Source: Nitrososphaera sp.
GTDB taxonomy: Archaea; Thermoproteota; Nitrososphaeria; Nitrososphaerales; Nitrososphaeraceae
Assembly (NCBI GenBank): GCA_029263715.1
Contig: JAJUFP010000006.1
Coordinates: forward strand, 1-64,000
Direction of reading: 5' to 3'
DNA: 64,000 nucleotides
The translations under genes were made by a program, and so were the position numbers. The notes under the pieces are model-generated. The model was not told the origin of the DNA and ran no database searches. It saw nothing but the letters and a program-made list of their open reading frames with translations. Shown piece by piece: positions 42,287-52,961 of the stretch; position 1 is the stretch's first letter; every line of letters starts with the position of its first letter.

Positions 42287-43405
42287 CTACGGGCTTGACA
42301 CCCTTAAAATCTTGTCATCGCCGGGTTCTGCTATTGCCCTGCCGTCGCGGTTGCTTGTGAGGACGTACAGCGTTCCGTCCGGCGCCTCTGTCACATCGCG
42401 CAGCCTGCCAAAGCTGGCAAGGATGTTGCTCTCGGTCCCTGATTCCAGGTCCACAAGTCGGAGCTGCTTGGCTTTCAGGGCCGTCAACAGTATGTCGTTT
42501 TCGTACCCAAGCCTGTCAGAGGATGCAAAAGTCATGCCTGCCGGCGCTATGGCCGGGTTAAAGCACACCACCGGCTTTTCAAACTGGGTTGCATCGCATT
42601 CCTCGACGGGCCAGCCGTAATTCTGGCCGGGCCTGATAAGGTTGATCTCGTCGTTGCCGGACTCGCCATGCTCGCTGACATAAAGCTCGCCTGTTACGGG
42701 GTGCCACGCCATCCCCTGAATGTTGCGGTGGCCGTACGAGTATACAAGGGATCCCGGGAACGGATTGTCCTCGGGGATGCTGCCGTCCGGATTAACCCGC
42801 AGTATCTTGCCAGCCAGAGATTTTGCATTCTGTGCCAGCTCCGGCTGCCTTGCATCGCCGGTGCTGATGTACAGCTTGCCGTCGGGCCCAAACTTGATGC
42901 GGCCGCCGTCGTTTCTGTCGGCAGCCGGTATGCCGTCTATGATGACCTTGGAATCGACGATCTTGTTGTCCTTCTCCGTCAGCATCAGGACCTTGTTGTA
43001 AACGCCGGTCCCGTTGGAATATGTGTGATAAACGTACAGAAGATGGTTGTTGATAAAATCCGGGTGCAGGGCAAGACCAAGCAGCCCTGACTCGCCACGC
43101 TGCTCAACGTTGATGTAAGCAACAGGATCGGCAAGCAGCGTACCGCTGGAATCGATGACCCTTATCCTGCCGACGCGCTCGGTAAAGAACATCCTTCCAT
43201 CCTGTGCTATGTCGATGGCCCAGGGAACCTCCAGATTGTCGGCTACAATTTTGATTCCCGAACTGATGCCCGCGCCGTCGCCTCCCCTGCTGTCCGGCTC
43301 CGGGATCGGGATGCTCGTGCCCGGCGGGGTGTAAAAATAGGTAACTACAGCAGCAATGGCAACGGCCGCCACGGCTACCAGGGACAGCTTGCGTTCCTTA
43401 TCCAT
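42287..43405 (-). CDS. PQQ-type sugar dehydrogenase (glucose/sorbosone dehydrogenase family), exported
   Basis: An N-terminal hydrophobic segment (VAVAAVAIAAVVTYFYT) anchors or exports a six-bladed beta-propeller. Family motifs include VPWAIDIAQDGRMFFTERVG, GLLGLALHPDF, GGRIKFGPDGKLYISTGDA, GHRNIQGMAWHP, and SEHGESGNDEIN. Relatives are soluble aldose dehydrogenases using PQQ with calcium. Whether this archaeon has PQQ is unknown; the protein may act on extracellular sugars. It ends 10 nt from the HMG-CoA reductase gene. Confidence 0.85.
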   Translation of the reverse strand: MDKERKLSLVAVAAVAIAAVVTYFYTPPGTSIPIPEPDSRGGDGAGISSGIKIVADNLEVPWAIDIAQDGRMFFTERVGRIRVIDSSGTLLADPVAYINVEQRGESGLLGLALHPDFINNHLLYVYHTYSNGTGVYNKVLMLTEKDNKIVDSKVIIDGIPAADRNDGGRIKFGPDGKLYISTGDARQPELAQNAKSLAGKILRVNPDGSIPEDNPFPGSLVYSYGHRNIQGMAWHPVTGELYVSEHGESGNDEINLIRPGQNYGWPVEECDATQFEKPVVCFNPAIAPAGMTFASSDRLGYENDILLTALKAKQLRLVDLESGTESNILASFGRLRDVTEAPDGTLYVLTSNRDGRAIAEPGDDKILRVSSP

Positions 43406-43457
43406 CTACAGAGGTTGGAAATACGAAGGCTTAAAATGTAATCCCCTGAATCTGAAT

Positions 43458-44561
43458 ATGGTAATGAAAGTTTCAGAGATAATGGTTACGAATGTAGCCA
43501 CTCTAACAGTAGAGGACACGATAGCCAGGGCATTCAACCTGATGGGAGACAAATCCATCAACCAGGTGCCCGTGGTTGATGAACAGGGCAGCTATGTGGG
43601 GATGATATCTGCCAAGCATCTTTTGGGCTCAAGCGCCCAGCCTTCCTCAAAGCTGAAGGGTTTTGTGGTCAGTACGTCAACACTAAATCCTGCTGATGAG
43701 ATTGAAAAGGCCGCCCAGCTTGTGATTGGAACCGGCAACCGCGCCCTTCCGGTGGTAGAGAATGGCCGACTCGTGGGCCTAGTAAGCGAGACGGATATAG
43801 TCCAGACTGCCGATTTCGGGCACGCTACCGTCGATGAGGTGATGTCCGGCGCCATAGTGATAGAAGACGATACCCTGCTGGCTGATGCGCTTACCAAGAT
43901 GCGTCGTTACAACATTTCCCGCCTGCCTGTGATCGACAAGAAGGGGATTCTCCGCGGCACACTGAACATTCTTGATGCCGCCCAGGTGATAGCTGCCCCC
44001 AAAGAGCGGACCAGCAAGTCAGCCGCTATAAGCGGCGCAACTTCCAAGGTCAAGGGCAACGTCAAGGTAAAGGACCTCATGCGCCGGGCCGTCTCTGTTG
44101 AACGCGGCACCAAGCTCAACGATCTGGTCAGCAACTTCAAGAACAAGGAAGAGGTCATTGTTGTCGGCGACGGCAGACCCATGGGAATTGTAACCCCGAA
44201 GGATGCCCTGGAGCTGATCTTGCCAAAGAAAGACGAGCCGGTTATTCACATGGCGCACCTTGACAATGAGGATGACCGTAGAGATATAGAGGAGCATCTG
44301 GCACGGTTTTTGAAAAAGATCCAAGGCAAGCTAGGCAACGTGCTATCGGTGGTGGTGTATGCTGACAAGCACAAGACAAGAAAATACTCCATCAGAACAC
44401 GTCTTATCACTGCAAAAGGCGTGATAAACGCCAGGGCCGTTGGCTACGATCCCATCAGCGCCGTCAAGGAGCTGATAGCCAGGCTTGACCGCCAGATCAA
44501 GGCAGAGCACACACAGAAAGTAAAGGGCAGAAAACAGAGAGAATCTGCAAGAAAGATGTAG
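43458..44561 (+). CDS. Four-CBS-domain protein fused to a ribosome-hibernation (HPF/YfiA)-like domain
   Basis: From ATG 43458 the 367-residue protein has four CBS motifs (about 3-55, 72-118, 126-178 and 203-252), each with the VPVVDxxGxxVG-type strand pair. The tail at about 262-350 (HLDNEDDRRDIEEHLARFL, NVLSVVVYADKH, KYSIRTRLITAKGVINARAV, DPISAVKELIARLDRQI) matches the beta-alpha-beta-beta-beta-alpha order of HPF/YfiA-type ribosome hibernation factors, followed by a basic end. CBS pairs bind adenylates. An energy-sensing ribosome or RNA-binding regulator is a plausible inference. The frame opens at 43356, but upstream codons lie inside the divergent gene. Confidence 0.78.
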   Translation: MVMKVSEIMVTNVATLTVEDTIARAFNLMGDKSINQVPVVDEQGSYVGMISAKHLLGSSAQPSSKLKGFVVSTSTLNPADEIEKAAQLVIGTGNRALPVVENGRLVGLVSETDIVQTADFGHATVDEVMSGAIVIEDDTLLADALTKMRRYNISRLPVIDKKGILRGTLNILDAAQVIAAPKERTSKSAAISGATSKVKGNVKVKDLMRRAVSVERGTKLNDLVSNFKNKEEVIVVGDGRPMGIVTPKDALELILPKKDEPVIHMAHLDNEDDRRDIEEHLARFLKKIQGKLGNVLSVVVYADKHKTRKYSIRTRLITAKGVINARAVGYDPISAVKELIARLDRQIKAEHTQKVKGRKQRESARKM

Positions 44562-44562
44562 G

Positions 44563-44686
44563 CGCAGATGAGGAGATTCGAACTCCTGATCGCCCGAAGG
44601 CGAATCGGCTCTCCGGCCTGAAACCGACTCAAGGCCGACGCATTATTTTGTCCCCACGTCGGGGGAGACCACTCTGCCACATCTGC
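44563..44686 (-). tRNA. tRNA-Ser (anticodon UGA) with two apparent introns
   Basis: The acceptor GCAGATG/CATCTGC, D-stem GCA/TGC, anticodon stem TCGGC/GCCGA, long variable arm TCGCC-TTCG-GGCGA and T-arm AGGAG-TTCGAAT-CTCCT fold as a serine tRNA with discriminator G. Anticodon TGA is at 44629-44631. To fold, about 17 nt after position 37 (near 44611-44627) and about 22 nt in the D-loop (near 44646-44667, with a TCCCC/GGGGA hairpin) must be removed, giving about 85 nt. Exact splice sites are uncertain. CCA is not encoded. Confidence 0.8.
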
Positions 44687-44792
44687 GCAAGCTCATTTCT
44701 TTGCCAACCTACTATTATATGTTAACAGGCTTGCTGATTGTCAGAATTTTGGAACTTGAGACGCCTTCGATTTTTATACCTGAAACGAGTTA

Positions 44793-52883: not shown

Positions 52884-52961
52884 TGGTGGATGGGGAGAGA
52901 TTCGAACTCTCGACCACCTGTGTGTGAGACAGGTATCCTAACCAGGCTAGACTACCCATCC
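52884..52961 (-). tRNA. tRNA-Val (anticodon CAC)
   Basis: The minus strand folds with acceptor GGATGGG/CCCATCC, anticodon stem CCTGT/ACAGG around CTCACAC (anticodon CAC), and T-arm GAGAG-TTCGAAT-CTCTC. Discriminator A is followed by an encoded CCA. No intron is needed. Confidence 0.93.

Follow-up and report, generated by a model that had tools for sequence, protein, structure and literature searches.

Archaeal tRNAs with up to three introns are described in the available text of PMC8450103, where Thaumarchaeota genomes account for 107 non-canonical introns, for which a separate model was trained. Thaumarchaeota are likewise named among the phyla with non-canonical introns in the accessible part of PMC3218864, and the accessible part of PMC4090602 includes 20/21 among the known non-canonical intron positions and assigns to Thaumarchaeota a heterotetrameric endonuclease associated with such introns. 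According to the portion of PMC6379350 that is available, heterotetrameric archaeal endonucleases accept relaxed motifs.

Set beside these systems, a tRNA-Ser(UGA) gene on the minus strand of the window (the whole 64,000-nt stretch of DNA analysed, part of a host genome of 1.92 Mb in 14 contigs) is a well-supported further example of introns already known in this archaeal group. Judged from its sequence and its homologues, the locus is very probably a working tRNA-Ser(UGA) gene, the transcript of which would contain two introns. Its features are given below with the evidence for each.

44563..44686, minus strand: tRNA-Ser(UGA) gene (sequence; ARAGORN on the joined exons; model R1; orthologues)
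44667..44686, minus strand: exon 1, nt 1-20a (GTGGTC end in 53/53 parsed copies)
44646..44666, minus strand: putative D-loop intron, 21 nt, position 20a/20b (insert-free homologues; register scan 1/198; covariation)
44662-44666 with 44651-44655, minus strand: hairpin of the D insert, TCCCC with GGGGA
44628..44645, minus strand: exon 2, nt 20b-37 (parsed copies; ARAGORN; register scan)
44629-44631, minus strand: anticodon TGA within exon 2
44611..44627, minus strand: 17-nt putative intron in the anticodon loop, at the canonical 37/38 site (L062 and L067 lack it; register scan 1/66)
44563..44610, minus strand: exon 3, nt 38-73, including the variable arm and the T-arm (parsed copies; ARAGORN)
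44712..44721, minus strand: TATA-like element catataatag, 26-35 nt before G1 (similar in orthologues by eye)

The insert in the anticodon loop resembles the archaeal bulge-helix-bulge intron at 37/38 in its position, its 17-nt length, the existence of intronless homologues and the anticodon stem as outer helix, but differs in that the inner helix of the window copy is weak (one of four pairs at the proposed register, by eye) and the central helix has three of four pairs. The D-loop insert shares with the non-canonical archaeal introns described in the available text of PMC4090602 (20/21) and PMC8450103 (Thaumarchaeota, tRNAscan-SE 2.0) its D-loop site, the form of a short hairpin intron, the use of the D-loop GTGG in the central helix, the presence of a second intron in the gene and the lineage itself. 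In contrast to these, its best junction lies at 20a/20b and its central helix contains only two of four standard pairs (G-A, U-A, G-C, G-A, by eye). With central helices of two and three pairs out of four, the motif in the window copy is therefore relaxed at best. As in the multiple-intron tRNAs of Thermoproteales (available part of PMC4033280), there are two introns per gene, one canonical and one not; however, the window belongs to an ammonia-oxidising soil lineage rather than to a hyperthermophile, and the D-loop intron is found in every parsed member of its family. The original prediction had regarded two introns in one tRNA as notable for this lineage, a claim that fails because non-canonical as well as multiple tRNA introns are already on record in Thaumarchaeota and other archaea (PMC8450103, in the text available).

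The gene runs on the minus strand from G1 (44686) to G73 (44563), and the predicted coordinates 44563-44686, given without a strand, were exact. The exons of 20, 18 and 48 nt yield a joined product of 86 nt, which is favoured over the 85 nt first proposed. Perfect pairing, predicted for the acceptor, T-arm, variable arm and D-stem, is borne out by the sequence: the acceptor stem has 7 bp, and the D-stem (GCA/TGC), anticodon stem (TCGGC/GCCGA), variable arm (TCGCC/GGCGA) and T-arm (AGGAG/CTCCT) are likewise without mismatch. Once the exons are joined, a cloverleaf with a long variable arm and a UGA anticodon is present (ARAGORN; stems by eye), and the predicted identity as tRNA-Ser(UGA) is strongly supported by this Ser(tga) call together with the comparison of homologues. 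When all 124 nt of the RNA were folded with RNAfold without constraints, the TCCCC/GGGGA hairpin, which had also been foreseen, appeared together with the acceptor arm and the D, variable and T arms. CCA is not encoded by the gene, and the next bases are CCT. Tail to tail with the gene lies an ORF (43356-44561, plus strand), CBS-domain-like as judged by eye, which ends one base before the 3' end of the tRNA.

The gene went unreported by ARAGORN without introns and by Rfam in the window. When the Rfam tRNA model was run over the entire genome, the unspliced gene scored 13.5 bits vs a cut-off of 29 bits, and ARAGORN without introns, silent on the unspliced and on either half-spliced form, called Ser(tga) only after the removal of both inserts. 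The score of 83.4 bits with model R1 is in-sample, since family members were among the sequences used to build R1. With ARAGORN and the Rfam tRNA model blank at this gene, an essential tRNA can escape standard annotation. The sole tRNA reported by ARAGORN and Rfam in the window was a tRNA-Val(CAC) without insert at 52884-52961 on the minus strand.

A blastn search found matches in 53 of 101 genomes, all of them in the family of the window genome, with the closest at G007:C210. From the 54 loci taken, 53 copies were parsed from 52 genomes, one genome having two copies, while the remaining locus (L063) lay at a contig end and was left unparsed. The joined exons of these copies measured 85-86 nt and formed 22 distinct sequences with a mean pairwise identity of 0.96 (equal-length pairs), compared with 0.59 for the D inserts (17-35 nt) and 0.49 for the anticodon inserts (13-42 nt). 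Chance or mis-folding was ruled out as a source of the pattern because all 53 copies parse the same way. The D insert was present in 53/53 parsed copies, and a pattern that also admitted insert-free D-loops matched 36 places, spread over 35 of the 70 family genomes, each place with an insert (the other 35 genomes were unmatched). The 37/38 insert was missing in two of the 53 copies (L062 and L067), in which the loop reads directly CTTGAGA. An A+T-rich element similar to that of the window was seen upstream of the parsed orthologues by eye.

Insert-free D-loops were found in other families of the order, for which 62 tRNA-like rows were chosen by eye and 60 classified. Between the D-loop and the anticodon, 42 of these 60 copies had no insert, 11 had an insert of 14-20 nt at the D site of the window and seven had one just 3' of G26. 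Among the insert-free copies, that of G150 reads GAGTGGTCTAATGCG, which is the exact predicted join. At least three of the four central-helix pairs between GTGG and the 3' part of the intron were present in 11/11 D-site inserts outside the family, and all four in five. In family f9, tRNA-Ser(UGA) without insert was found in eight of nine sampled genomes (eight readable); order- and class-wide pattern searches had given no tRNA-like match in f9, whose D-arm differs, and its copies were found by model R1 instead. The reading of both inserts as introns, proposed at the outset, is thus strongly supported by insert-free homologues at both sites. The copies form a clean set, insert-bearing and insert-free at two sites of one tRNA, which would lend itself to tests of how permissive the splicing endonuclease of ammonia-oxidising archaea is in reading its target, and to studies of gain and loss of tRNA introns.

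The cut sites were examined by a register scan, in which pairing of the central (4 bp) and inner (4 bp) helices was scored over combined shifted cut sites, leaving out registers scorable in less than 80% of the copies. Family-wide, the proposed sites ranked 1/198 for the D insert and 1/66 for the anticodon insert. One-base shifts scored nearly as high (6.62 and 6.60 vs 6.68 for the D insert; 5.50 vs 5.64 for the anticodon insert), and the exact cut nucleotide is therefore uncertain by one. At the D site, the 21-nt cut after GTGGTC and before TAATGCG is preferred because the flanking geometry and the G150 homologue support it. A 22-nt cut giving GTGGTTAATGCG would be possible as well, if less favoured, and other insert-free copies carry the shorter loop that it would give. 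The D-loop insert of the original prediction was thus present, at a favoured length of 21 nt (44646-44666) instead of about 22, and the insert of about 17 nt after position 37 is 17 nt at 37/38. Among 46 distinct D inserts, 200 of 230 inner-stem cells were paired, whereas 5000 shuffles, with relatedness uncontrolled, averaged 162 and never exceeded 179. Pairing in the five inner pairs survives substitutions, T-A to C-G for instance. Other parts of the D-site motif are less regular: two mismatches adjoin GCA/TGC in the outer helix of the window copy, nearly every family copy likewise has two in that helix, and outer pair 1 is paired in 0/46 and central pair 4 in 9/46 inserts. The outer helix of the anticodon insert, which is the anticodon stem, was paired in 42/42 distinct rows. 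The best RNAfold structure kept both hairpins, outside the exact bulge-helix-bulge register.

An alternative in which only the anticodon-loop insert is spliced, with the mature tRNA keeping the D-loop insert as an additional hairpin, has to be weighed against these data. It would account for the occurrence of the insert in every parsed family copy, for a hairpin kept stable under covariation and for the imperfect helices that flank the insert in the window copy. A retained insert would however be expected to be more constant in length and sequence, whereas the D inserts range from 17 to 35 nt within the family and from 14 to 20 nt in the 11 copies outside it. Moreover, the 42 insert-free copies lack it at the exact site, and in several other families GTGG faces CCAY or ACAY in a central helix at the D site, an arrangement of the splicing type. 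Retention of the D insert is for these reasons highly improbable.

An even smaller chance, close to negligible, is given to the locus being a decaying pseudogene with another tRNA-Ser(UGA) serving the cell. The low unspliced score with the general tRNA model would fit such a gene, but all stems are perfect and the exons are near identical in 53 copies. In addition, no other Ser(UGA) was found among the genome matches listed, the next best R1 match being Ser(GGA) with 62.1 bits. An apparent second Ser(UGA) at L047 (contig C6), called Ser(tga) by ARAGORN with introns, was rejected because by eye its sequence reads Thr(UGU) with a 37/38 insert.

With the locus read as a working gene with two introns, transcription would be driven by the putative TATA box about 26-35 nt upstream, and the precursor would fold into the cloverleaf, to which the inserts add two hairpins. 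Cleavage would then fall to the archaeal splicing endonuclease, which is probably a heterotetramer built from a catalytic and a structural type of subunit and would cut twice per insert, at relaxed bulge-helix-bulge motifs located at 20a/20b and 37/38. RtcB would probably join the exons to the 86-nt tRNA, and the addition of CCA would follow. The genome encodes one RtcB and two PF01974 splicing-endonuclease proteins, which score 104 and 80 bits. By eye, one of the PF01974 proteins contains the stretch VYEHG...DHAPYLV, where the other has KKPAKYVV. We take this to be the expected endonuclease histidine stretch, which is then kept in only one of the two.

Beyond the window's family, it is about an even question whether the tRNA-Ser(UGA) gene of this archaeal order is an intron hot spot, with introns gained, lost or moved at five sites (8/9, 20a/20b, 3' of G26, 37/38 and 59/60) and up to three per gene, the D-loop intron having become fixed in the window's family and the canonical one lost in places.

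Several further inserts were observed in the tRNA-Ser(UGA) genes of other families. The insert 3' of G26 takes the place of the D-loop insert in L217, L218, L219, L220, L221, L222 and L223. An insert of 13-34 nt at 8/9, between T8 and N9, was present in nine of 20 sampled loci (L207, L209, L212, L213, L220, L221, L222, L224 and L225), a proportion that is not a frequency since the 20 loci were picked for variety. The 3' part of these inserts pairs with the acceptor bases CGGG, with four of four central pairs in seven of the nine and three of four in the other two. The central helix of an 8/9 intron would thus use acceptor-stem bases CGGG (nt 3-6), and if this is true, splicing of such a gene would have to precede formation of the acceptor stem. 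Position 8/9 is not among the tRNA intron positions named in the available text of the review literature, and a literature search on position 8 brought up nothing relevant among the entries listed. ARAGORN without the intron option was mostly uninformative on the other-family genes because other inserts remained, and gave a clean Ser(tga) only for G103 (L224), once the 8/9 insert was removed. Three inserts were apparent by eye in five of the 20 loci (G167, G076, G087, G122 and G098), and the apparent third insert of the G167 copy (L209) lies in the T-loop, around 59/60.

Inserts outside 37/38 were also seen by eye in other tRNA genes of the window genome (L061, L087, L088, L256 and L258). Its insert-bearing tRNA genes include Trp(CCA), with the insert in the T-loop, a Gly-like gene with an insert in the variable region, Leu genes and Ser(CGA).
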